Shown piece after piece: positions 38,385 through 64,000 of a stretch of DNA of 64,000 nucleotides. Below the pieces are notes generated by a model, which was not told where the DNA came from, searched no databases, and saw only the letters and a program-made list of their open reading frames with translations. A program made the translations under genes and the position numbers. The DNA is from Verrucomicrobiales bacterium (GTDB lineage Bacteria > Verrucomicrobiota > Verrucomicrobiia > Verrucomicrobiales > DEV007). The stretch is taken from contig JAPYUT010000015.1 in NCBI GenBank assembly GCA_029940475.1, forward strand, positions 1-64,000, read 5' to 3'. Position 1 is the first letter of the stretch, and each line of letters begins with the position of its first letter.

Positions 38385-38390
38385 GTCAGG

Positions 38391-38437
38391 GGTATGCTCA
38401 AGCATACCGGTTAATCCGGCACACCTCAAGCATACCC
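38391..38437. promoter_or_regulatory. Palindrome and direct repeats upstream of the CotH gene
   Basis: GGTATGCTCAAGCATACC (38391-38408) is a perfect dyad, seven bases before the CotH ATG. CTCAAGCATACC occurs at 38397-38408 and again at 38425-38436, and ACCGGTTA follows near both copies. Multiple operator sites or a degenerate duplication. No T-tract, so not a terminator for hppA. Confidence 0.5.
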
Positions 38438-46207: not shown

Positions 46208-47527
46208 CTAAATCTCCCAGCCCTTGCGGTAATCACGCTTGATGAGTGGGGCTGCCTCGGGAGCGTTCGTGGCCTTCAGGTTCGGTCCATCCCAGTCGAT
46301 CTGCTTGCCGAGGCGAATCGCAAGGTTGCCAAGCAGGACGGTCTCGGTAAAAAGCCCTGAGTAATCAAACCCGGAGAGTGGCGCGGAACCAGTACCGCGA
46401 ATCGCATCAATCCACTCCTGGTCCTCGTTCTTCACGCGCGGGATCGTCTGCTCCGGGGCGCTCTTCCCGGCAAGGGCTTCCGGGGTGGTTTTCCACTTCG
46501 TGCTGTTGCGGTTAAAGAGGAACTTGCCTTTATCGCCAATGACGATCATGTCAAATTTCTTGGCGTTTTTCGAGTCCACTATAGTGCCCTCGAAAACCGA
46601 TTCCTCAGGCATGAATCCGCCGTCATACCATAGAAATGGCATCTTGTGGTTGTACTTCCCGGCCGGGAAAGTATAGGTAATGATCGACCTGTTTGGCCCG
46701 GACTCGGTAGTGTTGCCCTCCTGCTTGGCTTCAACGCCAACCGGATGTTTCAGCTCCAGTGCCCAGAACGGCATGTCCATGATATGACATCCCATGTCCC
46801 CGAGTGCACCGGTGCCGAAATCCCACCAGCCGCGCCATTTAAACGGGGCATACCCCGAGTTATAGTCACGCATGGGCGCAGGACCGATCCACTGCTCCCA
46901 ATCCATGCCCTTGGGTATATCCTGCTTTGGCAGGGGCTTGGTGACCCCTTGTGGCCAGATCGGGCGGTTGGTCCAGGTGTGCACCTCCTTTACCTTGCCG
47001 ACAATCCCGGCACGGATGAGCTCAACTGCACGGCGAATGGGCTCGCCGGCATGCGCCTGGTTGCCCATCTGGGTAATCACCTTGTGCTTGGCGGCTTCCC
47101 TGGCCAGCGTCCTCGCCTCCCAGATCGAGTGTGTCAGCGGCTTCTGCACGTAAACGTGCTTGCCTCTGCGGATAGCGTGCAGCGCAGCGTGAAAGTGCAT
47201 GTGGTCAGGAGTCGACACGGTGACTGCGTCAATCGTGTCGCCCATCTTCTCGAGCATCTTGCGAAAATCCTTGAAGCGTTTCGCCTTGGGAAATTTTTTG
47301 AAGGTTCCGGCAGCACGGCCGTCATCGACATCACAGAGGGCAACAATGTCAGCGCCGGCTCCACTGGCGCCGGCGATGTCGCTGGCACCCTTGCCGCCGG
47401 AACCGATCCCGGCAACGGCAACCCTCTCATTGGCACCGAACACACGGCTGGGTACAAACTGGAATGCAAACGTGCCGGCGGCACTGGCTTTAATAAACTT
47501 ACGACGGGTCAGGGATTTGCAGGACAT
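46208..47527 (-). CDS. Tat-exported Gfo/Idh/MocA-family oxidoreductase
   Basis: 439 residues with a twin-arginine leader (LTRRKFIKASAAG at about 6-18). Rossmann NAD(P)-binding motif VAVAGIGSGGKGASD (about 36-50), VSTPDHMHF, the EKP-like QKPLTHS catalytic stretch, and GTGALGDMGCHIMDMPF are family hallmarks. Such exported relatives are numerous in Planctomycetota and Verrucomicrobiota and may act in sugar oxidation or racemisation in the periplasm; substrate unknown. Divergent from the 47729 giant gene, with a 20-bp dyad between them. Confidence 0.9.
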   Translation of the reverse strand: MSCKSLTRRKFIKASAAGTFAFQFVPSRVFGANERVAVAGIGSGGKGASDIAGASGAGADIVALCDVDDGRAAGTFKKFPKAKRFKDFRKMLEKMGDTIDAVTVSTPDHMHFHAALHAIRRGKHVYVQKPLTHSIWEARTLAREAAKHKVITQMGNQAHAGEPIRRAVELIRAGIVGKVKEVHTWTNRPIWPQGVTKPLPKQDIPKGMDWEQWIGPAPMRDYNSGYAPFKWRGWWDFGTGALGDMGCHIMDMPFWALELKHPVGVEAKQEGNTTESGPNRSIITYTFPAGKYNHKMPFLWYDGGFMPEESVFEGTIVDSKNAKKFDMIVIGDKGKFLFNRNSTKWKTTPEALAGKSAPEQTIPRVKNEDQEWIDAIRGTGSAPLSGFDYSGLFTETVLLGNLAIRLGKQIDWDGPNLKATNAPEAAPLIKRDYRKGWEI

Positions 47528-47664: not shown

Positions 47665-47728
47665 AAAAATGGTGAACTTAGACTAATCTTTGTGCACCTC
47701 ACTTCCTTTTAATGCCCTCACCCTCCTG

Positions 47729-50700
47729 ATGCCCTTCAACTGGCAACAATCCCTCACCACTACGTGCTCGGCTGTTCTGCTCTGCCTGCCCGAGGCATCC
47801 GCGAGCCTGCGCATCTCGGAATTCATGGCATCCAATGACGGGGCATTAACCGATGAGGACGGGGATTCCTCAGACTGGATTGAGATTGAGAACACCGGGA
47901 TTAACGCCACGTCCGCGGGTGGCTGGTTCCTGACTGACTCCCCGGAAAACCTCAACCGCTGGCAATTGCCGCCGGTTGAAATCCCCGCAGGCGGCTACCT
48001 TGTTGTCTTTGCCTCGGGCAAGGACCGGGCAGTCGCGACCAGCGAGCTGCACACCGACTTCCAGCTTGAAGCCAAGGGCGAATACCTGGCCCTGGTGCGC
48101 CCCGATGGGTTCAGCGTTGCCAGTGAAATCACCTACCCCGAACAGCACGCCGATGTCTCCTTCGGCACGGACAGGCAAACCACGGATTTCCCCTTCATCA
48201 CCCCGCACTCGCCCGCGCGTTTTCTTGTCCCGGCCAACGGTGCACTCGGCCGGGGATGGACAGCCCCCGGGTTTAATGATTCCGGCTGGCTTTCCCTTAA
48301 AGCCGGAATCGGCTACCAGATCGACACCGGGGGCGGCGGTGCCGGGCAGCCGCGGGCCTACTGGGATTTTAACGGCGATGCCCGGGACCGCTCCGGTAAC
48401 GGGATTGACGGGACACTCCTGGGACCCGGCTTCTCGGGCACCGTGCCACCCGGGGGAGGCTCCGCCTCAGTGGTCTTTGACGGCGGCGGCGACTATGTCA
48501 GCGCCCCTCTGGACGTCTCTGAAGAATCCTACACCTGCTCACTGTGGTTTCGCACGACAAATGCCAACGCCGGCTTGTTCTGTGTCGTCGACAGCAACCT
48601 TGGCAGCGGCGGACACGACCGGCACCTCTACTTAAGCGGCGGCAACATCGCCTCCCGGGTCTGGAACAATGAGACCATCCGCTCCTCGGATCTCTCCCTT
48701 GCCGACGGGCAGTGGCACCACCTGGCGCATGTCTACGGCGGGTTGACCGGCGGCCAGCGAATCTACATTGACGGCACCTTTGCCGTTGGCGGCGGCAAGG
48801 CACAGTCAGACTTCAACTGGCAAAGGCACGTCAACATCGGCTTCTCCAACGACGCGCAGCAGCAGTATCTCACCGGCAACATTGATGAAGTGGCACTCTG
48901 GAGCGAGGCCCTTGATGTCGCGCAGGTCGGCGCACTGGCAAACGGCATCTCCCCGATGGCCCTCGGCGGCTTTGATCCGGTGATCATCAGTGACGTGGAA
49001 AACCGGATGCGCAACATTAACGCCACCGCCTACCTGCGTGCCGCCTTCAACGCAGCTGAGCTCGATCAACTCGAAAAGCTCGAGCTGCGCATGCGCTACG
49101 ACGACGGCTTCATCGCTTACTTAAACGGCAGCGAGATCGCACGCCGTGAGGCGCCGGCAAACCCGCTCTGGAACAGCCAGGCGAGGACCAACCGCGCAAA
49201 CACTGATGTCCTCACCCCCGAGGTAATCAACATCAGCGCCCACCTGGGACTGCTCAACCCGGGTAGTAACACCTTGGCCGTGCACGCGCTCAACAACGGT
49301 GCCACCAGCAGCAACTTCCTGCTCCTTCCCGAGCTGGTCGGCGTGCGCATTGACGAGGAGGCGCAGCGTTATTTCATCTCCCCGACACCCGGCACGGCAA
49401 ACAGCGGGGGCGTGGTTGACTTTGTCGCCGATACCAAGTTCTCCCACGACCGCGGCTTCTATGACAACATGTTTGAGGTCACCGTCACCAGCACCACCCC
49501 CGGAGCATTTTTAGTCTACACCCTTGACGGCTCCAAACCCTCACCCGGAAACGGCATCACCGTTGCCGCAGCGGATGACACATCACCTCCCTCGGTAAAC
49601 ATACCCATCAGCTCGACATCAACCCTGCGCGCCGCCGCCTTCCGCTCCGGCTGGCAGCCAACCAATGTTGATACCCACAGCTACATCTTCATCGACGCCG
49701 TTGCCCGGCAACCCGCATGGCCATCGGATTTTCCAGGCGGTTGGTCCAATTCCGGGGCCGACTACGGCGTCGATAGTGACGTGGTCAACTCAACCCTGCC
49801 CGGCTACAGCTTTCGTGAGGCCCTGCTGTCCATACCCACCATGAGCATTACCAGCGCTCCCGGCGACATCTTTGGTGCCCAGCGCGGCATCTACTACCAC
49901 TCCACCGGGCGCGGGCGCCCCTGGGAGCGCGAGATTTCCCTCGAGATGTTCCACCCGGACGGCAGCACGGCTTTCCAGGAGGACTGCGGCGCACGCATGC
50001 ACGGCAACTCCAGCCGCAGCCACGGCTTCACCCTCAAGCACCCCTTCCGCATCCTCTTCCGCAATGAATACGGCGCCGGAAAACTGCGCCACAAGCTCTT
50101 TACCGACTCCAGCGTTGAGCGTTTCGACCAGATCCTGCTGCGCGGCGCCTCGACAGATTCCTGGCCGGTGGCCGACGGCGGGTCGCGCTGGCTCAACGAG
50201 CGCGGCACCTACATCCGCGACCAGTGGGTACGCAACGCGCAGATCGCCCTCGGCCAGCCATCAAGTCACGGCACCTACGTGCACCTGTTCGTCAACGGGC
50301 TCTACTGGGGCCTCTACAACCCCTCGGAACGGCCAACTTCATCCTTCACCGCGGAGCACATCGGCGGCGAGAAGGAGGATTGGGACATCTTCAAGGACTT
50401 CGCTGAGCTGCGCGAGGGAAACAGGACCGCCTGGGATCAGATGTTTGCCCAGGCCAACGCCGGATTGAGCAGCAATACTGCCTACCAGCGAATCCAGGGC
50501 AACAACCCTGACGGCACGCGCAACATGAGTTACCCAGTATTGGTCGATGTGGACAACCTGATTGACTACATGCTCGTGCATATCTACATCGGCGGCGAGG
50601 ACTGGCACCAGCACAACTGGTGGGCGGGTCGCCGCAGGGGTGCGGAGAGCACCGGCTTCAAGTGGTTCGCCTGGGACCAGGAAATCTCCAACGAGTCACT

Positions 50701-52807
50701 CACGCGCACGGTCTCACTGGCCGGGACGCGATTCGAGGACCCCTACTACGGGCGCCAGGGACCCGCCCACATTTACGGCAAGCTGCTCGACAACCAGGCA
50801 TTCCGCTGGCGCTTCCAGGACCGGGTGCACGAGCTGCTCTTCAACGACGGTCCGCTCACCGCTGAGAATGCCGCGAATATCTGGCTTGCACTGCAAAATG
50901 AAATCGACCAGGCAATCGTCGGCGAGAGTGCCCGCTGGGGCGACACCCGCGACGCCGTGCCACACAAGCGTGAGACCTCCTGGCTGCGGGAAATGGACTG
51001 GATGCAGAATATCTACTGGGAAGCCAACCACGCCCGCGTGCTGCGCGAGCGTTTCCAGCGCGTCGGGATCTACCCGAACATCGCCGCACCCACCTTCAGC
51101 CGTATTGGCGGCGTGGTGCCAAGCGCTGCCCAGCTGTTCTTCGACGCCGGTGAGTTCAATGTCTACTACACCACCGACGGCTCCGACCCGCGCGGGCCGG
51201 GCGGCGGCCACTCGCCATCGGCGAAAGCTTACAACGGCGGCTCACAGGATGCTGTCCTGCTGCCGAAGAACTCAATCTGGAAATACCTTGATGACGGCTC
51301 CGATCTGGGCAGCGCCTGGAGGGCGCCCGGATTTGATGACAGTAATTGGGCAAGTGGCGCCGGGCAGTTCGGCTACAACGAGGGCGACGAGGCCACGGTG
51401 GTCAGTTACGGTGGCGTCAGTTCCGACAAGCACATCACCACCTACTTCCGCACCACCCTCGAGATAGCCGGCGCCGGCGCGGTTTCCGACCTCTCGCTGG
51501 GTGTGCTGCGCGATGACGGTGCCACCCTCTACCTCAACGGCACAGAAATCGCCCGCAGCAACATGCCCGGTGGCGTGATCAGCCATGACACCACCGCGCT
51601 CTCCAACGTCCTCGGTGCCAACGAGGATAAATACCATGTCTTTGAAATCGACCCGGCACTGCTCGTCGACGGCACCAACGTGCTCGCCGTCGAGGTCCAC
51701 CAGGTTCATTCCCAGAGCAGCGACCTGAGCTTTGACGCCACCCTCAATGCCACCGTGCAAACCTCGGTGGAACCGGTGGAAATCACCACCTCCGGGACTA
51801 TTAATGCGCGCGCCTTCAGTGGTAGCGAGTGGTCGGGGATGAATTCCGGGCACTTCATTGTCGGGGCACTCCTGGCATCGCAGGCAAACCTTGTCATCAG
51901 CGAGATCCACTACCGCCCTGCTGCCCCGAGCACCGGGGAGGCGGCTGCCGGCTTCAGCTCGGCAGGGGATTTCGAGTTCATTGAGCTGGCCAACATCAGC
52001 CCAAGCCCGGTCGACCTTGCCGGGGCACGCTTTGAAAACGGCATTGACTTTGATTTCTCCGCTGAGGCTGACTTCACCGAGGTTGCCCCCGGCGGACATG
52101 TCCTGCTGGTCGCCAACCGCGCCGCCTTCGAGCAACGCTATGGTAACGGCCTGCCGGTCATCGGCCGGTTCGGCAATGCCACCTCGCTTGCCAACGACGG
52201 TGAGCGGCTGCGGCTGGTGTCCGCAGGCAACGAGACCATTCGTGACTTTGCATACGATGACAAGGCTCCCTGGCCCGCCGCCGCTGACGGCGGCGGCTTT
52301 TCACTCACCCTGCTCAACCCGGCGGCAAATCCCGACCACTCGCTGCCCGAAAGCTGGCGCGCCGGCCTTGATCCCGGCGGCAGCCCCGGGAAAACCAATG
52401 GCGGTATCGGCTTCGCTGCCTGGCAACAGGCATGGTTTGATCCCTCAAGCGGTGATTTCCCCCTGAGCTCCGCAGCCACCGCCGACCCGGACGGCGACGG
52501 GACACCAAACGCCATGGAGTTCCTGCTCGGCAACTCCCCGCTCAGCCCCGGACCCCAGGGCATTGATGTGGGTAGCGTTGGCGACGGGGATAATTTGCGC
52601 CTGACAGTCTCCTTTACCCGCCGGGCAGCGCTTGCAGGCACTGCGTGGCAGATTGAGCGGTGCACTGTTCCCGGCAGCTGGTCACCGGTGCAAACCTCGC
52701 TCATCCAGTCTGTTGCACAGGGTGGCCTCATCCGCGAGACACATCGCCTGATGGCACCGATGGATGCCACGCCGTGGCAAATGGTGAGGCTCCGTGTCAG
52801 CCTGTAA
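47729..52807 (+). CDS. Giant secreted lamin-tail/LamG/CotH protein
   Basis: About 1692 residues from the ATG at 47729, which precedes a signal peptide; an upstream TTG at 47690 is less likely. Domains: lamin-tail (about 25-147), LamG (about 204-410), jelly-roll (about 414-544), chitobiase-C-like (about 568-657), CotH (about 705-990) with FAWDQEISNE near 980 in the metal-motif position, a second chitobiase-C-like segment, a second jelly-roll (about 1178-1347), second lamin-tail (about 1388-1517) and a C-terminal beta domain with a DPDGDGTPNAMEF calcium-type loop. Its 3' end and downstream region are duplicated at 58179-58815 as a decayed copy. Extracellular; function inferred only as surface binding or modification. 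Confidence 0.88.
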   Translation: MPFNWQQSLTTTCSAVLLCLPEASASLRISEFMASNDGALTDEDGDSSDWIEIENTGINATSAGGWFLTDSPENLNRWQLPPVEIPAGGYLVVFASGKDRAVATSELHTDFQLEAKGEYLALVRPDGFSVASEITYPEQHADVSFGTDRQTTDFPFITPHSPARFLVPANGALGRGWTAPGFNDSGWLSLKAGIGYQIDTGGGGAGQPRAYWDFNGDARDRSGNGIDGTLLGPGFSGTVPPGGGSASVVFDGGGDYVSAPLDVSEESYTCSLWFRTTNANAGLFCVVDSNLGSGGHDRHLYLSGGNIASRVWNNETIRSSDLSLADGQWHHLAHVYGGLTGGQRIYIDGTFAVGGGKAQSDFNWQRHVNIGFSNDAQQQYLTGNIDEVALWSEALDVAQVGALANGISPMALGGFDPVIISDVENRMRNINATAYLRAAFNAAELDQLEKLELRMRYDDGFIAYLNGSEIARREAPANPLWNSQARTNRANTDVLTPEVINISAHLGLLNPGSNTLAVHALNNGATSSNFLLLPELVGVRIDEEAQRYFISPTPGTANSGGVVDFVADTKFSHDRGFYDNMFEVTVTSTTPGAFLVYTLDGSKPSPGNGITVAAADDTSPPSVNIPISSTSTLRAAAFRSGWQPTNVDTHSYIFIDAVARQPAWPSDFPGGWSNSGADYGVDSDVVNSTLPGYSFREALLSIPTMSITSAPGDIFGAQRGIYYHSTGRGRPWEREISLEMFHPDGSTAFQEDCGARMHGNSSRSHGFTLKHPFRILFRNEYGAGKLRHKLFTDSSVERFDQILLRGASTDSWPVADGGSRWLNERGTYIRDQWVRNAQIALGQPSSHGTYVHLFVNGLYWGLYNPSERPTSSFTAEHIGGEKEDWDIFKDFAELREGNRTAWDQMFAQANAGLSSNTAYQRIQGNNPDGTRNMSYPVLVDVDNLIDYMLVHIYIGGEDWHQHNWWAGRRRGAESTGFKWFAWDQEISNESLTRTVSLAGTRFEDPYYGRQGPAHIYGKLLDNQAFRWRFQDRVHELLFNDGPLTAENAANIWLALQNEIDQAIVGESARWGDTRDAVPHKRETSWLREMDWMQNIYWEANHARVLRERFQRVGIYPNIAAPTFSRIGGVVPSAAQLFFDAGEFNVYYTTDGSDPRGPGGGHSPSAKAYNGGSQDAVLLPKNSIWKYLDDGSDLGSAWRAPGFDDSNWASGAGQFGYNEGDEATVVSYGGVSSDKHITTYFRTTLEIAGAGAVSDLSLGVLRDDGATLYLNGTEIARSNMPGGVISHDTTALSNVLGANEDKYHVFEIDPALLVDGTNVLAVEVHQVHSQSSDLSFDATLNATVQTSVEPVEITTSGTINARAFSGSEWSGMNSGHFIVGALLASQANLVISEIHYRPAAPSTGEAAAGFSSAGDFEFIELANISPSPVDLAGARFENGIDFDFSAEADFTEVAPGGHVLLVANRAAFEQRYGNGLPVIGRFGNATSLANDGERLRLVSAGNETIRDFAYDDKAPWPAAADGGGFSLTLLNPAANPDHSLPESWRAGLDPGGSPGKTNGGIGFAAWQQAWFDPSSGDFPLSSAATADPDGDGTPNAMEFLLGNSPLSPGPQGIDVGSVGDGDNLRLTVSFTRRAALAGTAWQIERCTVPGSWSPVQTSLIQSVAQGGLIRETHRLMAPMDATPWQMVRLRVSL

Positions 52808-52831
52808 CTAACTGAAATTTAATTACTAACA

Positions 52832-52853
52832 TTTTTTTTGGGGGGGGGGGGGG
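52832..52853. repeat. T8-G14 homopolymer tract
   Basis: Eight T (52832-52839) directly followed by fourteen G (52840-52853), about 25 bp downstream of the giant gene's stop and about 190 bp upstream of the next giant gene. The homologous tract at 58657-58673 is T8-G9. Long G-runs are prone to slipped-strand length change, so this could tune expression of the downstream gene. Assembly or sequencing error in homopolymers is an alternative. Confidence 0.6.
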
Positions 52854-52946
52854 AGTTTAGGGTCGACTCACGCGGCGTATTGCCCAATAATCGTTGCTAA
52901 TAAAAGAAATGGGGGATTTTGGGTAATTAAAATAACGGGGCGCATT

Positions 52947-52972
52947 CCACGCTGAGCTTTTTTCTCACGTGG
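52947..52972. other. Conserved hairpin upstream of the first LamG/TSP3 giant gene
   Basis: CCACG and TGAG pair with CTCA and CGTGG around a T-rich loop. The homologous place at 58771-58798 keeps a hairpin although bases differ (CCACGT/ACGTGG), so the structure rather than the sequence is preserved. It lies about 70 bp before the ATG at 53042, inside the expected 5' UTR. Confidence 0.5.
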
Positions 52973-53041
52973 ATCTCAACCGCCTATTTTGTACTCATCA
53001 AACCTTACTTAATCAGTCCTGCAAAACCCTACGACAAAAAC

Positions 53042-56000
53042 ATGACCATCAAATCCACATTCCTAAGTATCTTGTTTACCATTCTGGCGATATTTACATT
53101 TGCTCCTACTCAAGTAGTGAACGCCGCATTTCCGGAACCCCTTCTCTTCTGGGATTTTGATGACATCTCCGACGCCGGAGTAGCCGTTGATGTAAGTCCA
53201 CATGGACAAAACGGTAGCATTATCGATGGCGCTGCATTCTCTGCCGATGGCGGGGGTCACTCAGGAGCAGCCGGCGACTATTCCATCAACCTTGGTGGCC
53301 ACAATGGCAGACAAACCGTCAAGTTGGTGACCAATCACTTCAACACCGCAACAGCCAATGACACGATTACCTTCTCCTTCTGGCAGAAGAGCACCGTAAA
53401 CCAAAGCACCTCGAGCTTCATGCTCTATTCCCCAAGCAATAACCGGGCAATGCATGGACACGTTCCCTGGGGTAATGGTCACATCTACTTTGACGGTCCC
53501 AACTGCTGTGGCGGTGACAGGCGGATTAATGGACCCGGGGGTATCGTCGCCAATGAATGGACCCACTTCGTGTTCCAGAAATTCGGACCAAATAAAGAGG
53601 TGTGGGTCAATGGCGTAAAGATGACCTGGAGCAGAGGTGGACAGGCTGCCCTGCCAAGTGATACCACGGAATTCACTGTCGGCAGTGAGCGGGGTGGAAA
53701 CAGTGTCAACGGTTTCATTGATGAATTTGTCGTGTTCGGCGAAACCCTGACCGCGGCGCAGATCGCCGAACTTGCAGCCGGTGCAAACCCCGTGCCTCTC
53801 GAAGACAATGATGAGGATGGCTTGTCCGATGCCTGGGAGATCGCAAACTTTAATAACCTGGACCAGGACGCCAGTGGCGACCCCGACAATGACGGGGTAA
53901 ACAACGGGGATGAATTCGCCATCAGGACTGACCCGAACGACGATGACACCGATGATGACGGGCTTACCGATGGCGCCGAGATCGCCGGCGGCACCAACCC
54001 GAAGAACTCCGACAGTGATGCTGACGGGCTTAACGACGGCGCCGAGATCGCCGCCGGCACAGATCCGCTCAAATTCGACAGTGATGGGGACAGTTTCTCA
54101 GACGGCACCGAGGTCACCGCGGGTACCGACCCGGTCGATGAAAATTCAACCCCAGGACTCATATCCATTGATTTGAGTTTCCCTCCCTTGTTGGGTGGAC
54201 CCGGTGGCACCCTATACGCACCAAACCTGGCTGAGCCGGGTCTGACCATGCAGCAGAATCACTACGCCGATGGAGTTGTCGCCAACAACCAAGCTGAGCG
54301 GAACTACAACCGGGTTGCCCTCACCGCAACTGACTGGCCGCCTATAAGGAGCGCTCAACAAACCCAGCCTTACTTCGACCACGGCGGCGGTGGCTTCAAT
54401 ACTCCATCAGGAGGTAATCGCGCATATATCGATGGCGGCGGAGACGACTTCTCTATCCGTATTAATGGCTATGTGCTCTTTAAAAATACCGGGCAATACA
54501 CAATCTACCTCCGGGCAGATGATACAAACTACTTCATTATTGACACTCCGGAGGGACGTAAGTCAGCCAATCATAACTGGATTGGCGGCGTGGATAAAAC
54601 CCTCATTTTCAATGTCTCCTCTCCCGGCTATTATCCCTTTGATAACGTGATGTGTGAAGACGGTGGCGGCGACTGGGGAGATGTCAGTATCACCGGCCCC
54701 GGTATCACCCAGCGCGCCGCTCTCGGCGACGTGGCCGCCGGAAGCCCGGCAATCTACACGATCCTGGGCACAGACAGTGATGAGGACGGGCTGCCGGATT
54801 GGTATGAAATAGACAACTTCGACGATATCACGACCACTGATGGAAGTGGTGACGCGGACAATGACGGATCAACCGATGCACAAGAGTATGCAGCCGGCAC
54901 TGGCCCGAATGACACCGACAGTGATGATGACGGGCTCAATGATGGCGACGAAGCCGTTGCCGGCAGCGACCCGCTTAATCCCGATAGTGATGGTGACGGG
55001 TTATCCGACGGTGTCGAAACAAACACAGGCACCTTTGTCGACGCTAATGACACGGGCACCGACCCGACTCTTGCAGACAGTGACGGGGACTACTTTCAGG
55101 ACAAGCTCGAGATTGATAACGGATCCGACCCGACCGATGACGATTCCCGGTTATTCGCACTCGGCAATCTTGATGTGCTAAGCGGGCTGCCCAGCGGCAC
55201 TTATCCAATGGGCTTTGGCAGCAGCATCGTTAACGCCTACATCCACAACGACGGGACAGACAGCTGGGTGCTGGTCGGTCGCGGCCGTGAAGGATGGAAC
55301 TGGAGCGCAGATGGCCAGGGCTCAGTCGGCGACGTTATCAGGAACCTTGGCACCCCCGGTGCCTTCGCTCCCGCCACATACAGCACGAACGCCATCAACG
55401 GGTTGCTCGCCGCCTCGGGCGTCACTAACCTGACTGAGATCGAGATTCGCCTCAAGCGCGCCAGCAACCCCCAAGGCTCTGCCTATGAGGAGGCCCGCTG
55501 GCGTCCGAATAATGCAGCTGATACCGCGTGGCGCTGGAACTTTGATACCGCGATGAACGTCCAGTATGAAGTGGTGGAAACCAACGGTGCGCCGGGCGGA
55601 CAGATCGGAGTTTCGGACCGCAACACCCGTGACGGTGAACTCGGCGGAAACGACAGTGACCGTATCTTCACTTGGGCCTGGGGTGGCCATAACAACTCTA
55701 AGGGCTTCAGCATGGGGCAAAATGTTACCACCGGCAGCCAAGCCTCCAACAACTTCCACTGGGATCATCCCAACAACGGGTTCAACCACTCCATCCCCTA
55801 CACCGAGGTCTATGTTCGCATCAAGAACCCTGGCGTGGTTGCCCTTGACGACACCGATGATGACGGCACGATGGATGCCCTTGAGGTGGCTCTTACCGGT
55901 AATCTGGACACCCTTACCGGGGATGTGGATGAGGACGGGCTTAGCGACTCGAATGAGTTTAGCTCCGGTACCAATCCTTATCTGGCTGACACTGACGGTG

Positions 56001-58030
56001 ACGGGCTCAACGACGGCGATGAGGTCAACACCCACAACACTAACCCACTGCTGGTAGACAGTGACGGCGACGGGCTCAACGACAGCGATGAGATCAACAC
56101 CCACAGCACTAACCCACTGCTGGCAGACAGTGACGGTGACGGTATTGCGGACGGTTTAGAGATTGGTGCCGGCGGCGACCCCAATGACCCAGATTCGAAA
56201 CCGGAAATCTTGAATGATCTCAACATTGTCAGCATGTTGCCTTCCGGCACTTATCCGGTCAAAATCGGCGAGCAGACAATTGGCGCTTACGTCAATAATG
56301 ACGGGACAGACAGCTGGTTGCTGGTCGGTCGCGGTCGTGAAGGATGGAACTGGAGCGCAGATGGCCAGGGCTCAGTCGGTGACGTTACCAGGAACCTTGG
56401 CACCCCCGGTGCCTTCGCTCCCGCCACATACAGCACGGCCGCCATCAACGGGTTGCTCGCCGCCTCGGGCGTCACTAACCTGACTGAGATCGAGATTCGC
56501 CTCAAGCGCGCCAGCAACCCCCAAGGCTCTGCCTATGAGGAGGCCCGCTGGCGTCCGAATAATGCAGCTGATACCGCGTGGCGCTGGAACTTTGATACCG
56601 CGATGAACGTCCAGTATGAAGTGGTGGAAACCAACGGTGCGCCGGGCGGACAGATCGGAGTTTCGGACCGCAACACCCGTGACGGTGAACTCGGCGGAAA
56701 CGACAGTGACCGTATCTTCACTTGGGCCTGGGGTGGCCATAACAACATCATGGGCTTCAGCATGGGGAATAGTATCACCACCGGCAGCCAAGACTCCAAC
56801 AACTTCCACTGGGATCACCCCAACAACGGGTTCAACCACTCCATCCCCTACACCGAGATCTATGTCCGCATCAAGAACCCTGGGACCCCGGTCACGCCGG
56901 ATACAGATGGAGATGGCATCAGCGATACCGTTGAACTGCTCGTTGCCGGCGATCTGGACACGTATGGCAGTGGTAACGCTGACCAAATAGTGACCCGGTT
57001 TGACAGTGACGGTGACTCGTTTAGTGACGCTATCGAGGTGGCACGCGGCTCCAACCCGAATGACAACACCAGCACCCCGTATGGCGACAGCCTCGGCCTG
57101 CTCGCTTACTTTGACTTTGACGATCCATCAGACCCGGCAGTTGCCGTGGACCTTGCCTTTGGCCAGGTCGCTGACGTCAATGCTGCGGTTTACTCGGCGG
57201 ACGGCGCAGGCCACTCAGGGACTGCCGGCGACTATTCCATGTCCTTTAACGGTAATCAGAGTGTAGTCCTTGGGAATATCGGTCATCCACGCACCACCAA
57301 AGCCGCTATCTTCAATGGCGCCGCCGCCAATGACACCATAACCTTGTCATTCTGGATGAAGACCAGCGCGGGACACAATAGCAATACATTCAACTTCTAT
57401 TCCCCCAGCGTTTCCCACACTCGTGCCTTGTGGGCACATGCCCCCCATGGTGGCCAGATCTACTTTGACACCGCGGGATGCTGCGCTGCTCCTGGACAGC
57501 GCATCAACGCCCCCGGCGGTATCGTCGTCGGTCAGTGGCAACACTTTGTCTTCCAGAAGAACGGTGAAACCAAGACAGTGTATAGGGACGGCGAGGTAGT
57601 GATGACTGGGGGCGGCGCGTGGCCTCTGCCCACCGACATCAGCGCCCTCTACATCGGGGCCGGTGCGGTGTATGGAGTCATCGACGAGTTTGCCGTCTTC
57701 AATGGCCCGTTGAGCCAGGATCAGATCACCAGGCTTGCCAATGGAGACTCGCCCATCGACCTGATCATCCCACCCGTGGACCTGGCGATCATCGGTGACC
57801 CCGTGTATACCGAAGGTGGTGGGGCCAACGGCGAAGATGTCCTGTCCATTACCTTCGCCAGCAATCCCAATGGATTCTACGCGCTCGACCGAATGACTAA
57901 CCAAGGCTGGGAAGAAATAGATGACGGTCTCGGGGTGGCTGAGGCCGGTAACAGCACCACTATTGATATTATCGTTACTGGAAGCAATACCTACCGTATC
58001 CGCGACATAATCCTGCAGGATACTCCCTGA
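53042..58030 (+). CDS. Giant secreted LamG/thrombospondin-type-3 mosaic protein
   Basis: 1662 residues with signal peptide (about 1-29). Domains: LamG (about 30-250); Asp-rich thrombospondin-type-3-like calcium repeats (about 255-365); PA14/GLEYA-like domain (about 400-545); TSP3 repeats (about 575-690); a fibrinogen-C-like module with [15 protein letters not shown] (about 705-930); TSP3 repeats (about 935-1040); a second, nearly identical module (about 1055-1280); TSP3 repeats; a second LamG (about 1355-1580); and a short C-terminal domain. The duplicated module carries 306 identical bases. Likely an extracellular, calcium-rigidified adhesin-like rod; no enzyme motif seen. Followed by a strong terminator. 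Confidence 0.87.
55250..55833. repeat. Internal duplicated module, copy 1
   Basis: 584 bp nearly identical to 56300-56883, offset exactly 1050 bp (350 codons). Within it 55391-55696 is identical base for base to 56441-56746, including third codon positions. It encodes the fibrinogen-C-like module. Recent duplication or gene conversion. Confidence 0.9.
56300..56883. repeat. Internal duplicated module, copy 2
   Basis: Second copy of the module at 55250-55833. A more diverged third copy lies in the neighbouring giant gene at about 62725-63330. Confidence 0.9.
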
Positions 58031-58086
58031 TATCCCTGGGTTATTTGCAGGACTTAAAACCCCGGTAAAGATCCTTGTTTGATCCA

Positions 58087-58125
58087 CCCGGCGGGAAGCA
58101 GAGTTGCTTCCCGCCGGGTTTTTTT
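58087..58125 (+). terminator. Rho-independent terminator
   Basis: A perfect 14-bp GC-rich stem (CCCGGCGGGAAGCA, loop GAGT, then its complement) followed by seven T. It ends the transcript of the LamG/TSP3 giant gene 57 bp after its stop codon and separates it from the decayed duplicate downstream. Confidence 0.92.
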
Positions 58126-58178
58126 AGTCTCCGGGCAAGTCCTTCACCCGGTCCGCAGAGTCAGCCCCTTCGCCGGCC

Positions 58179-58630
58179 TGCCGGTAATCGGGCAGTTGGC
58201 AATGCCACCTCGCTTGCCAGCGACAGTGAGCGGCCTGCGGCTGGTATCCGCCGGCGGCGAACCCATCCGTGACTTTGAATACAATGACAAGGCTCCCTAG
58301 CCCGCCGACCCGGACGGCGACGGCACACCAAATGCCATGGAGTTCCTGCTCGGCAACTCCCCGCTCAGCCCCGAACCCCAGGGTATTGAGGTGGGTAGCA
58401 TTGGCGACGGGGAAAATTTGCGCCTGACAGTCTCCTTTACCCGCCGGGCAGCGCTTGCAGGTGCTGCGTGGCAGATTGAGCAGTGCACTGTCCCCGGTAT
58501 CTGGTCACAGGCACAAACCTCGCTCATCCAGTCTGTTACACAAGGTGGCCTCATCCGCGAGACGCATCGTCTGGCGACACCGGAAAATGCCACATCGTGG
58601 CAAATGGTGAGGCTCCGTGTCAGCCTGTAA
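58179..58630 (+). pseudogene. Decayed duplicate of the CotH giant gene's 3' end
   Basis: Homologous to 52150-52807, the last ~220 codons of the 1692-residue giant. It has no 5' part, two compensating one-base indels near 58190-58230, an in-frame TGG-to-TAG change at 58298-58300, and a deletion of about 210 bp between short CCGCCG repeats. The last 97 codons (58337-58630) stay open, ending at the same stop as the parent. The homology continues past the stop into the intergenic region up to about 58815, so a genomic segment was copied. Confidence 0.85.
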
Positions 58631-58656
58631 CTCACTGGAATTAAATTGCTTACATC

Positions 58657-58673
58657 TTTTTTTTGGGGGGGGG
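58657..58673. repeat. T8-G9 homopolymer tract (second copy)
   Basis: Duplicated counterpart of the T8-G14 tract at 52832-52853, with five fewer G. It lies about 215 bp upstream of the last giant gene. Confidence 0.6.
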
Positions 58674-58770
58674 ATAGGCTTCAGGCTCGACTCACGCGGC
58701 GTATTGCCCAATAATCTCTGTTAATAAAAAAATTGGGCATATTTGGGTTATTTAGAACGGCTGTCTGATT

Positions 58771-58798
58771 CCACGTCCAGCTTCTTTGGTTCACGTGG
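58771..58798. other. Conserved hairpin upstream of the second giant gene
   Basis: CCACGT (58771-58776) pairs with ACGTGG (58793-58798). Counterpart of the hairpin at 52947-52972, with compensating base differences. It is followed by the palindrome CTCAAGCGCTTGAG at 58801-58814, which is degenerate in the first copy. Confidence 0.5.
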
Positions 58799-58889
58799 AT
58801 CTCAAGCGCTTGAGGTTTTCTTCCTTTACCAGTTCTAAATGTCATTCGCCCTGACAAAACCTCACACAAACTTCCACCGTCCTTTTACC

Positions 58890-61800
58890 ATGAAAAACAC
58901 ACTGCCTCTCCTCGCCTTCTTCACCATCCTGATCGGTTCAGCATTTGGCCAGTTGCCCACACGCAACCAGGTCCTCTGGCTTGACGCCTCGGATGCCGCC
59001 ACCATCACCGCTGACGCCAACGGCCTCGTCTCACACTGGGCCGATAAGAGCGGGTCAAATTCCAACGCAATTCAGCCTGAAGCTGCCCGCCAGCCACACA
59101 TCAACACCGCGGTGATCGGCGGCAAGGATGGCATGCGGCAGGATGCCACTACCGGCATGAGAATCGAAAACCTCAGCCTCGCACGCCCCTACTCCATCTT
59201 CATCGTTGACCAATATGCTGCCGACGCAGTCAACAAGGGACGCACCCTGCAGGCAATTGACAATACAGGCGGTGGCAACTGGCTGTTCGGCAAATGGGGC
59301 GGATACCACGCTCATCACGCCGGACAATGGGTCGGGATTTCAGGAGGTATCGGAGCCCCGAACGGGGAGGCAAAGATTGCCGAGGGAACCGGGACATGGC
59401 AGTCCAGCGACTGGTCACTTAACGGCTTTGGTCACGGCGGTAACCAGCACCCGGGTGCGCCCGGTGCCATGGCCTTCGGGATTGAGGGCCAGTATAATGC
59501 TGAAACCAGCCAGGCAGAAATTGGCGACATCATCGCCTACGACCGCCTGCTGGACAACGCCGAGCGCGAGCAGGTCATCGCCTACCTTGGCAACAAATAC
59601 TCCCTGCCGGTCGTAGCTCCTGAAGACGCGACCCGCGTCTCGGTCTTCAGTGGTGCTGATCCCGGCGAGGGACTTGACTTTCAGGGCAACTTCATTGCCG
59701 CTGTTGAGGCCGTCGGAGGTGGTGGGTTCACCATCGGCGACGCCACCTTCACCAGTGACGCTGGAATTATCGCCGCCCCGAACGCTGCCGCTAACTGGGG
59801 GCCCGGTGTCGCCAACATTGCAATCGACAGTGCCGATGACACCAATCTCATCCAGGTGATGAACGACATCCGCTGGGCACCCGGCGCGTCGGGCCTTACC
59901 GCCACCGTCCCGGGACTCACCAAAGGCAAGCACTACAAGGTGCAAATGCTCTTTGCCGACAACGGCGTGATCCGCCACTGGGGGGTGTGGGTTGAAGGCT
60001 CCCGCGTCGCGATCGACTTCAACGGCGCCGGCTACACCGGCGGCGGGGCTGACCACGGTGTTGCCCTGGTGCACCGCTTCGTGGCAGGAGATGATACCCT
60101 GAACATCCTCTTGCGCTCTGACGGCCTGGGCCACGGTGACATCAACCCGATCATCCAGGGCCTCACCGTTGAGGAGGAGGACATAACCACCTTGACCAAC
60201 ATTGTTGAAATTACCGGTGCCTCAACACTCGACTTCTCCGGCGAGATCACCCACGCCGTCAACATTGGCGGACCCGGCGGAGCAGTCGTTGGTGACGCGG
60301 TCTTCACCGCGGATAACGGTGTTGCCGGCGTTGAAGTCGTGGCCGAGAACGTGGCGAGCCCGTGGGGAGCTGCCCGTAACATCGGTGACTCAGCTGAAGA
60401 TAACGCGCTGGAGGGAGTCCTTAACAGCATCCGCTGGCAGTCCACGGATTATGCGGGCACATTCAGATCCAACACCCCGGGCAACGACGGTATCCACGTG
60501 CGCCTGGACGGGCTCACCGACGGCGAGGGCTACAAGCTGCAGTTGCTCTTCAGCGAGTTAGGTGTGAACCGCGGCTTTGACATCTCGGTCAACGGCAGCC
60601 TGGTCGTCGACGAGTTCCCCACCAACCAGGGTGAGAGCAAGAACTTCGCCGTGGTGCATTATTTTGTTGCCGATGGCACTGATGTGACTGTGCACTTAAG
60701 CGGTATCGCAGCCACATTCGCCGACAGGAACCCGATCCTAAACGGCGTCACCTGCGAGGAGATCGGAAGCTTTGACAGTGACGGTGACGGCCTGTTCGAC
60801 GGCTGGGAGGAACAACACTTCGGCGACCTGGCCCAGGATGCCAGTGGCGATCCTGATGGTGACGGTCTCACCAACGCCGAAGAGTTTACTGCCGAGACAG
60901 ATCCGACCAAGGCGGACAGCGATGAGGACGGACTCACTGATCCGCAAGAGCTCGCCGGGGGTACCGACCCGAACAATAGCGACAGTGACGGTGACGGGCT
61001 CATCGACGGCGATGAGCTCAACACCCACAGCACCAACCCGCTGCTGGCAGACAGTGACGGCGACTACTTCAAGGACAAGCTCGAGCTTGATAACGGGTCC
61101 AACCCGAACGAGGCCAACAGCATCCCGATCGCCGATGGGCTCGGGCTCCTCGCTTACTGGGACTTCGATGACCCCTCCGACCCGGTTTTTGCCACCGACG
61201 CCATCTTGGGCCAGACCGCCCAGTTGCACAACGGCGTAGCCTATAGCCCTGCAAGAGGAGGCCACTCGGGATCATCGGAAGACTATAGCGTGCACTTCAC
61301 AGGTGGCTGGCAATCTGTCCTCCTCAGCGATGCCGGTTATTTCAATTCCGCCGCCGCCACGGACAAGATGACCATCTCATTCTGGCAGAAAACCCAACTG
61401 TTCACAAATCCCTCTACATTCCACCTCCATTCCCCCAGCGTTTCCAGCGGTCGCGGCTTGTTTGCACATGTCCCCCATGGCGGCCAAATCTACTTTGACG
61501 GCCCGGGATGCTGCGCGGGAAACCAGCGCATCAACGCCCCCGGCGGCATTGCCATCAACCAGTGGCATCACTTTGTCTTCCAGAAGGACGGCCACATCAA
61601 GACAGTCTGGAAAGACGGTGTGCAAGTTGTGACTGGAAGCGGTCAGTTGGCACTGCCCACCGACCTCACCCAGCTTAACATCGGGTACCAAAACGTGTTT
61701 GCAGACATCGACGAGTTTGCCGTCTTCAATGGTCCCTTGACCCTGGCGCAGGTTGCTTTGCTCAGCAAGGGCGCCTCGCCCACTCACCTGATCGGTGGCG

Positions 61801-64000
61801 ACAGCGACAATGACGGGCTCAATGACAATTGGGAAAGAGACAACTTCGGCGACCTGGCCCAGGATGGCAATGGCGACGCCGACGATGACGGGCTGTCCAA
61901 TGCAGAGGAATACGCCCTGGTCACCAAGGTGAATAATCCAGACAGCGATGGCGATGGTCTCGATGACGGCGACGAAGTCGCCGCCGGGACTGATCCATTC
62001 AATCCTGACAGCGACGGCGACGGGCTTACTGATGGGTCTGAAGTCGCTACCCACAATACCAACCCGCTCAACTCCGACACGGACGGTGACGGGGCTGCGG
62101 ACAATGCAGAGGTTGGCGATGCGTTCCAGCGCAGTGACCCCAATGACGACGACTTGACACCGGTAGTATTGACTGATCTCAACATGCTCAGCGCATTGCC
62201 TACCGGCAATTATCCCTTGATTGCTGTCTCCGGGGCGCAAGCACTTACCGCCTACAGTGCTGCCGAGGGCACAGTCGGAAACCAGGCCTTTGGCGGCAGC
62301 CTTGGTATGGATTTCGATGTCACTTCCCCGATTACCGTCAATGAGCTTGGTGCCTTTGACAGTGGCGGCGATGGCCTGAATCTGGAAATCGGCGTTGCAC
62401 TGATGAGGCGCAGCGATGCGGCGGTTCTGGCAACACTTAACTTAATTGGCAGTGACGACAGGCTTGCAGGAGGACATCGCATGAAGGCACTGGATCAACC
62501 CCTTGTGCTGCCTCCCGGAGGCTACTCCATTGTTGCCTGGGGCTATGGTGGCGCTGAGCAAAACGGTAATGGTATCGCGGGTTTCTCCACCGATGGTGGT
62601 GGTGGTGCCATCCAGTTTGTTGGTGGTTCCCGCTGGGATGCTGCTGCCGGGGTGCTTCCCGCGAATGTGGATGGTGGTCCCGTCAATCGCTATGGGGCGG
62701 GCTCCTTTTCCTACTCAACATCCGACCAGATAATCAATGCTTCCGTCGAGAATGACGGCACAAACAGCTGGGTGGTGATCGGTCGCGGCCGGGAAGGCTG
62801 GGCCTGGGGCGCCGACGGACAGGGATCCCCTGCTGACGTGAACAAATACCTTGGCACTCCTGCCGCATTCCCGCCTGCAGCATACAGTGCGGCCCTCATC
62901 AACAAGTTGATCGCCGACTCGGGCGCCAACCTGACCGGTGTGGAAATCCGCCTCAAGCGCGCCGCGAACGCGGAGGGCTCAACCTATTCGGACGTGCGCT
63001 GGACCCCGACGGATGAAACAGCATTTCGATGGGACTTTGATACCGGTGCTGGAATGAACGTGGGTTATGCGATGGTATCCACCGGCGGCGTCGCCGGGGG
63101 ACAAGTACTCACCCGTGCCGGCGGCAATACCAGGGACTTTGCCTCTGACACTGGCAACGACGGTGACCGCGTGTTCACCTGGCAGTGGGACCAGCACGCT
63201 ACCAAGGGCTTCAGTTATGGCAACCTTGTCACCACCGGCTCAAACAATGACACCAACTTCATCTATGAAAGACATGTCGAGAACCACGGCATTCCCTATA
63301 CCGAGGTCTCCATCCGCCTGAAGGACCCGGCGGCCCCGGTCACGCCGGATACAGATGGCGATGGCATCAGCGATACCCTTGAACTGCTCGTTGCCGGCGA
63401 CCTGGACACGTATGGCAGTGGTAACGCTGGCCAAATAGTGACCCGACCGGGCAGAGACAGTGACGGCGACTGGTTTAGCGACGCTATCGAGGTGGCCCGC
63501 GGCTCCAACCCGAATGACGACACCAGCACCCCGTATGGCGACAGCCTCGGCCTGCTGGCTTACTTTAACTTTGACGACCCGTCAAACCCGGCAGTGACCG
63601 TGGATCTTGCCTTTAATCAAGTCGCCGACGTGGTCAATGGTGCGGTTTACTCGGCGGACAGCGCAGGCCACTCAGGGAATGCCGGTGACTATGCCATGGA
63701 CTTCGGGGGCGGAGGCTCTCAGGGTGTCCTCCTGGGCGATGCCGGTATCCTCAATTCCGCCACCGCCAACGACACCGTGACCGTATCATTCTGGATAAAG
63801 ACCAGCGCGGGCGGGCAAAACACCTCGGTGTTCAACCTCTATTCCCCCAGCGTGTCTCACGGTCGCGGCTTGTTTGCACATGCCCCCTGGAGTAACGGCC
63901 ACATCTACTTTGACGGCCCGGGATGCTGTGACGGGAGCAACCGCATCAACGCCCCCGGCGGCATCGTCGTTGACCAGTGGCATCACTTTGTTTTCCAGAA
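58890..64000 (+). CDS. Giant secreted LamG/malectin-like/TSP3 mosaic protein, partial
   Basis: At least 1703 residues, open to the right edge with no stop. Signal peptide about 1-20. Domains: concanavalin-like (about 25-235); two related malectin/galactose-binding-like repeats (about 247-430, 435-623); thrombospondin-type-3 calcium repeats (about 627-747); LamG (about 749-967); TSP3 (about 969-1092); a beta module with GNQAFGGSLGMDFDV and RYGAGSFSYS (about 1094-1277), also found in the CotH giant on the minus strand; a fibrinogen-C-like module (about 1278-1480); TSP3; and a second LamG running off the edge. Related cassettes are shared with the 53042 gene. Probably a surface or matrix protein. 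Confidence 0.86.
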   Translation, partial: MKNTLPLLAFFTILIGSAFGQLPTRNQVLWLDASDAATITADANGLVSHWADKSGSNSNAIQPEAARQPHINTAVIGGKDGMRQDATTGMRIENLSLARPYSIFIVDQYAADAVNKGRTLQAIDNTGGGNWLFGKWGGYHAHHAGQWVGISGGIGAPNGEAKIAEGTGTWQSSDWSLNGFGHGGNQHPGAPGAMAFGIEGQYNAETSQAEIGDIIAYDRLLDNAEREQVIAYLGNKYSLPVVAPEDATRVSVFSGADPGEGLDFQGNFIAAVEAVGGGGFTIGDATFTSDAGIIAAPNAAANWGPGVANIAIDSADDTNLIQVMNDIRWAPGASGLTATVPGLTKGKHYKVQMLFADNGVIRHWGVWVEGSRVAIDFNGAGYTGGGADHGVALVHRFVAGDDTLNILLRSDGLGHGDINPIIQGLTVEEEDITTLTNIVEITGASTLDFSGEITHAVNIGGPGGAVVGDAVFTADNGVAGVEVVAENVASPWGAARNIGDSAEDNALEGVLNSIRWQSTDYAGTFRSNTPGNDGIHVRLDGLTDGEGYKLQLLFSELGVNRGFDISVNGSLVVDEFPTNQGESKNFAVVHYFVADGTDVTVHLSGIAATFADRNPILNGVTCEEIGSFDSDGDGLFDGWEEQHFGDLAQDASGDPDGDGLTNAEEFTAETDPTKADSDEDGLTDPQELAGGTDPNNSDSDGDGLIDGDELNTHSTNPLLADSDGDYFKDKLELDNGSNPNEANSIPIADGLGLLAYWDFDDPSDPVFATDAILGQTAQLHNGVAYSPARGGHSGSSEDYSVHFTGGWQSVLLSDAGYFNSAAATDKMTISFWQKTQLFTNPSTFHLHSPSVSSGRGLFAHVPHGGQIYFDGPGCCAGNQRINAPGGIAINQWHHFVFQKDGHIKTVWKDGVQVVTGSGQLALPTDLTQLNIGYQNVFADIDEFAVFNGPLTLAQVALLSKGASPTHLIGGDSDNDGLNDNWERDNFGDLAQDGNGDADDDGLSNAEEYALVTKVNNPDSDGDGLDDGDEVAAGTDPFNPDSDGDGLTDGSEVATHNTNPLNSDTDGDGAADNAEVGDAFQRSDPNDDDLTPVVLTDLNMLSALPTGNYPLIAVSGAQALTAYSAAEGTVGNQAFGGSLGMDFDVTSPITVNELGAFDSGGDGLNLEIGVALMRRSDAAVLATLNLIGSDDRLAGGHRMKALDQPLVLPPGGYSIVAWGYGGAEQNGNGIAGFSTDGGGGAIQFVGGSRWDAAAGVLPANVDGGPVNRYGAGSFSYSTSDQIINASVENDGTNSWVVIGRGREGWAWGADGQGSPADVNKYLGTPAAFPPAAYSAALINKLIADSGANLTGVEIRLKRAANAEGSTYSDVRWTPTDETAFRWDFDTGAGMNVGYAMVSTGGVAGGQVLTRAGGNTRDFASDTGNDGDRVFTWQWDQHATKGFSYGNLVTTGSNNDTNFIYERHVENHGIPYTEVSIRLKDPAAPVTPDTDGDGISDTLELLVAGDLDTYGSGNAGQIVTRPGRDSDGDWFSDAIEVARGSNPNDDTSTPYGDSLGLLAYFNFDDPSNPAVTVDLAFNQVADVVNGAVYSADSAGHSGNAGDYAMDFGGGGSQGVLLGDAGILNSATANDTVTVSFWIKTSAGGQNTSVFNLYSPSVSHGRGLFAHAPWSNGHIYFDGPGCCDGSNRINAPGGIVVDQWHHFVFQ

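Follow-up and report, generated by a model that had tools for sequence, protein, structure and literature searches.

Bacteria of the PVC group carry many giant surface-protein genes, the origin of which is rarely traceable. The locus described here raises this question in a concrete form, since a CotH giant gene is followed on the same strand by two further giants (genes B and C), and between these lies a decayed piece of the CotH gene itself. How was this arrangement formed, and which of the two giants was added?

The sequence is one contig (G000:C83) of a 130-contig MAG from an uncultured verrucomicrobial bacterium (genome G000, ~3.97 Mb). The window, i.e., the whole stretch analysed, comprises its first 64,000 nucleotides (1-64,000), and the contig was followed past the window end to 66976, gene C running over the window edge. 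The CotH giant of the locus, with orthologs of 79% amino acid identity in the sister genome G002 (JAAESJ, "Verrucomicrobiaceae bacterium") and 74% in G003, is one of three CotH/LTD giants within 29 kb (24160-28725, 33597-38429, and 47690-52807), which are interleaved with central-metabolism genes encoding H+-PPase, PFK, class II aldolase, and ROK kinase.

Features of the CotH-B-C locus (positions of the contig)
Feature	Coordinates	Strand	Remarks
Left-flank Gfo/Idh gene	46208-47527
CotH giant	47690..52807	+	1705 aa; LTD, LamG, CHB_HEX_C, and CotH kinase domains (Pfam)
T1, intact CotH tail	52147..52807	+
I1, gene B leader	52808..53041	+	homologous to I2 up to ~52983
Gene B	53042..58030	+	1662 aa; single intact frame
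PA14 module of gene B	54158..54790	+	74% aa to a second giant family in G001 and G003
Step duplication in gene B	55234..56883	+	fibrinogen-like domain 55234-55833 repeated at 56284-56883
Copy of gene C 3' end and 3' flank	57953..58177	+	equals 64404-64627, 89%; includes end of converging gene
Intrinsic terminator of gene B	58086..58126	+	duplicate of the gene C terminator
Duplication junction	58174..58177		4-bp overlap CGGC, gene C 3' flank / CotH tail
T2, CotH-tail remnant	58174..58630	+	TAG, -1/+1 indels, 204-nt in-frame deletion
I2, gene C leader	58631..58889	+	homologous to I1 up to ~58809
Gene C	58890..64000 in the window (ends 64484 on the contig)	+	1864 aa
Right-flank gene	64576-66975 (beyond the window)		converging on gene C

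A head-to-tail duplication and its junction

The stretch from 52147 to ~52983 recurs at 58174 to ~58809 with 601 of 672 aligned bases identical (~89%), a count that was made on a gapped alignment and includes the weakly similar leader ends. The repeat, which an earlier note on this DNA had placed at 52150-52980 and 58179-58815, is hereby confirmed with slightly different bounds, and it contains the terminal 661 nt of CotH and ~180 nt of leader. On its left side, the duplicated unit starts with the 3' part of the CotH giant, from 52147 onward. A search of the whole ~3.97-Mb genome recovered the tail/leader repeat (E 3.4e-171 and 9.5e-42) and nothing else close.

The right edge is duplicated as well. 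Gene C is followed by a strong terminator and then by the 3' end of the converging gene, and the same order is found after gene B. Homology to the gene C flank stops at 58177, while homology to the CotH tail begins at 58174 on the same strand, i.e., in direct orientation. Since the flank match ends where the CotH-tail copy begins, a unit composed of CotH tail, leader, giant, and terminator has been duplicated head-to-tail, with copy one spanning 52147-58177 (gene B) and copy two 58174-64627 (gene C). Thus, a block of ~6 kb comprising the CotH tail and the whole next giant was copied. Both unit ends, namely the tail/leader and the gene C 3' flank, are present twice, in keeping with the earlier proposal of a copied unit to which the CotH tail belonged. 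In contrast, the idea that the second copy had lost its 5' part does not hold, as the missing stretch was never copied and the edge of the remnant is the duplication breakpoint itself. The 4-bp CGGC overlap may have guided the join, although it is only suggestive in this respect, since a few percent of joins would show such an overlap by chance alone.

The same junction bears on whether the locus could be an assembly chimera of strain variants. The source is a fragmented MAG with scaffold gaps nearby (an N run at ~65183-65282), which would favor an artifact of this kind; however, no N bases occur in 52000-59000, gene B is one intact frame of 1662 codons, and the copies are ~11% different on either side of the 4-bp junction. 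Assemblers join sequences on shared words of at least 20 bases, so a 4-bp junction between copies with ~11% divergence counts against a chimera, which we regard as highly improbable.

The CotH-tail remnant and the duplicated leaders

The piece of CotH gene left at the junction (T2) carries the internal lesions that had been reported for it. These are a nonsense codon (TGG to TAG at 58298-58300), two compensating indels (-1 near 58197 and +1 near 58234), and, between CCGCCG repeats, the loss of exactly 204 nt, so that the equivalent of ~52275-52478 is absent at ~58301. Since 204 nt correspond to 68 codons in frame and the indels cancel each other, most of the T2 frame is still open, the stop aside. 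When tail changes were polarised by the G002 and G003 outgroups, 12 were assigned to the intact CotH gene and 16 to T2. The latter are distributed 6/5/5 by codon position, showing no codon bias, as would an unconstrained sequence, and comparison with both G002 and G003 identifies the stop as derived. At several sites T2 retains the ancestral residue and the intact CotH gene has since been altered. Therefore, T2 is a duplicated pseudogene, with a disabling change derived in the copy and changes that show no codon-position bias. No sign of function was seen in T2. The possibility that it constitutes an independent gene or a regulated ORF was considered and rejected, T2 having neither a start nor a leader of its own, one stop, and no codon bias.

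The leaders of genes B and C (I1 and I2) share an identical block of 34 nt. A T8-G14 tract is located in I1 (52832-52853) and a T8-G9 tract in I2 (58657-58673); TTTTTTGGGGGGGGG is confined to these two leaders in the ~4-Mb genome, and the T/G tract is absent from the leaders of G002 and G003. These T8-Gn tracts are a possible candidate site for slippage or phase variation. Moreover, both leaders contain a TCCACG...CGTGGA hairpin (52945-52980 and 58768-58800) with different loops and a z of about -2.2 each, while promoter-like sites in the leaders occur at chance level. A role of the leader as a genome-wide regulatory repeat was rejected, because the genome contains just these two copies. Judging from their own leaders and terminators and their long intact frames, both B and C are probably expressed.

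Mosaic giants and the age of the duplication

Gene C is the giant that retains the ancestral neighborhood. Its N-terminal 628 aa are orthologous to the gene that follows CotH in G002, and alignment with this ortholog places its start at the ATG at 58890 instead of at 58839, as had been annotated earlier, with its end at 64484. In G002, 268 bp separate the CotH ortholog (79% aa) from the downstream C ortholog (61% over 1156 aa), which runs off the contig; neither gene B nor the remnant was found at this locus, and synteny is conserved on the opposite side of CotH (genes of 88-93% aa identity). In G003, the 3' end of a C-type gene points toward the right-flank ortholog, at a locus that contains an N gap. 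The single-copy state is, hence, pieced together from G002 on the left and G003 on the right, neither contig covering the whole locus. The earlier note had proposed a single CotH-giant arrangement in a sister genome as a test of recent duplication, and G002, with CotH directly followed by the C ortholog, displays it. CotH is also followed by C-type giants in G010 and G014, which belong to two other genera. The occurrence of a C-type gene after CotH in G002, G010, and G014 indicates that CotH and a C-type giant form an old module, to which gene B was added.

The C-type giants of G014 and G010 form tandem pairs of their own (L032:11306-14652 and L035:5943-11205), which look independent of the pair described here; their first members are mutually closest (59%), and this tandem pair is probably older. 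Furthermore, the left-flank Gfo/Idh gene and the right-flank gene have orthologs that are adjacent on contig C417 of G010, 13 bp apart and in the same orientation. The site of the entire CotH-B-C island (47527-64576) is apparently unoccupied there, the G010 counterpart of the island lying elsewhere.

Gene B consists of a signal-peptide-like N-terminus followed by LamG, TSP3, PA14, TSP3, two fibrinogen-like domains, TSP3, LamG, and a C-terminal domain, and it misses the first ~735 residues of gene C. The first 33 residues of its signal-peptide region, together with the preceding ~60 nt, have no match in the own genome. The PA14 module sits between TSP3 stretches and is absent from gene C and from the C ortholog of G002. 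The own-genome member of this second giant family (NFDG/PA14; L093:1-1906) is cut off by the edge of contig C46 immediately ahead of its PA14 region; the recurrence of this part in gene B may be the reason.

The fibrinogen-like domain (55160-55831 and 56216-56881 in gene B, 62694-63329 in gene C) is rare in relatives, being found in G000, G002, G003, and G021. It has no sequence match in Pfam or PDB, and its top Foldseek matches are all fibrinogen-like (FReD) lectins, with a best E of 6.8e-5 from a low-confidence model (pLDDT 50) and a TM of ~0.35-0.4. On domain content, B and C are most likely secreted multi-domain lectin-type adhesins or polysaccharide-binding surface proteins. The step duplication of this domain within gene B (1050 bp, 96% nt identity, dS 0.10) is later than the tandem duplication and agrees with the earlier impression of a locus that is still rearranging.

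Synonymous divergence (Nei-Gojobori) differs strongly along the unit. It amounts to 0.175 between the T1 and T2 tails, compared over 148 codons, and to 0.127 for the TSP3 linker that lies close to the 3' ends of B and C, in comparison with 0.89 between the CotH genes of G000 and G002. If these values are clock-like, the duplication would be roughly five times younger than the G000-G002 species split, which sustains the recent origin that had been suggested, although dS ranges from 0.13 to 0.42 even among segments expected to date from the duplication. Between B and C, dS rises to 0.39-0.42 in LamG2 and the C-terminus and to 1.06 in the fibrinogen-like domain, and it is saturated in LamG1; the contrast in synonymous differences between the tail (18/115) and the fibrinogen-like domain (77/135) is significant (p 1e-11). 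The ends of the unit are, thus, similar (dS 0.13-0.18; flank 89%), whereas its middle is not; a fresh duplication would be alike throughout, while an old one need not be.

Phylogenies point in the same direction. LamG1 of B groups with LamG of G002 and G003, and the fibrinogen-like domains of B group with that of G002, while AU tests reject the clades B_L1+C_L1 (p 0.0006) and B_F+C_F (p 0.024). LamG domains are homogenised within proteins, as seen in other genomes, so that LamG orthology is uncertain. Relative to G002, dS is 0.85 for the fibrinogen-like domain of B and 0.87 and 0.73 for the N-terminal part of C; these ortholog-like distances suggest that the ancestral gene was split between the copies, with its N-terminus in C and its middle in B. 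B and C are mosaics whose copy relation holds at their ends only. For the middle of B, both dS and the AU tests led to the rejection of a simple copy model, in which B equals C plus decay, and gene B cannot be regarded as a plain copy of C either when its PA14 module (74% match) is considered, which like the middle has a separate history. The earlier view of the second giant as the copy is, hence, half right: a tail-bearing unit was indeed copied, but the added and remodelled copy is B, the first giant after CotH, while C retains the ancestral N-terminus and neighbor.

Could the duplication instead predate the G000-G002 split, gene conversion having since homogenised the tails, leaders, linker, and flanks, and the sisters having lost B? 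B/C divergence in LamG1 and the fibrinogen-like domain is at least as large as that of the species split, and intragenic homogenisation of LamG is known from the other genomes studied here. However, conversion would tend to wipe out the stop, the indels, and the 204-nt deletion of T2; an independent loss of B and of the remnant would be needed in G002; and the G002 gene, with a C-like N-terminus and a B-like middle, cannot result from a simple deletion in a B-C order. We therefore consider an old duplication very unlikely. The main rival, itself unlikely but less so, is an unequal exchange between diverged strains, in which an illegitimate crossover between the B flank and the CotH tail of another chromosome stacked CotH-B and CotH-C alleles. 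One such step would account for a strong B/C difference with tail, linker, and flank ~89% alike, as well as for the near-equal numbers of tail changes on both lineages (12 and 16), and the 11% divergence of tail and flank would then represent strain divergence and not time since duplication. Nevertheless, no single-copy CotH-B genome was found, the gene after CotH in G002, G010, and G014 is of C type, and the uneven B/C divergence would still require extra recombination.

Origin of gene B in the light of known systems

The explanation that we favor, and consider fairly likely, is an illegitimate head-to-tail duplication of the CotH-tail/C module followed by remodelling of the upstream copy into B. 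The starting point would be a single-copy CotH gene followed by a giant LamG/TSP3 gene (C). The site just past gene C, i.e., the ancestral equivalent of 64627, would have been joined to the CotH 3' end (52147) through the 4-bp CGGC overlap, giving rise to the order CotH-tail-leader-giant'-terminator / tail'-leader'-giant. The duplicated leader and terminator would provide each giant with its own 5' region and end, while a promoterless CotH-tail fragment would be left at the join, drifting as a pseudogene. The upstream copy would then have become gene B by losing ~2.3 kb encoding the N-terminal domains and by acquiring a new signal-peptide region and the TSP3-PA14-TSP3 module of another giant family, with its fibrinogen-like domain being duplicated later. 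The LamG1/fibrinogen-like middle of B would have stayed sister-like, whereas C would have kept the ancestral N-terminus with a divergent middle, a combination which suggests that recombination with divergent copies or alleles acted on the pair. From the divergence pattern observed, we infer the order and direction of these events, as well as recombination in which divergent alleles or giants from other loci took part. A bolder, rather doubtful idea is that the CotH-linked locus may serve as a diversification site for giant lectin-like proteins, in which duplication would supply spare copies, modules would be swapped among alleles or other loci, and slippage at T8-Gn would tune expression in an on/off or graded manner.

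The mechanism is ordinary and already known. Spontaneous tandem duplication has been documented in E. coli and B. subtilis (PMC11111574), and the locus resembles illegitimate or microhomology-type tandem duplications in its multi-kb direct repeat, its junction in an unrelated gene, its overlap of a few bp, and the truncated fragment at the join. Unlike the selected amplifications of that work, however, both copies persist here and have diverged into different mosaic genes. T2, in turn, resembles duplicated (non-processed) pseudogenes in being partial and startless, with a nonsense codon, indels, and unbiased changes, but differs from the typical case in that its indels compensate, its deletion is in frame, and its frame is mostly open. 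Giant genes are abundant in Planctomycetes (PMC5177795); one example treated in that article has a lamin-tail domain, and earlier work, as cited there, assigns >90% of giant genes to surface proteins or PKS/NRPS. With ~5 kb or more, the giants of the CotH locus are like the PVC-group giant genes for surface proteins; whereas that literature offers counts and descriptions, the origin of one giant gene is here resolved to its junction. The case is unusually legible, and its interest lies in this resolution and in the domain shuffling that has accumulated. The junction, the sister arrangement, and a datable CotH-tail fossil make it possible to order and date the birth of a giant gene against a species split, and the copying of ends and the swapping of domains are shown to be separable, which makes the locus a concrete and testable example of modular protein diversification.
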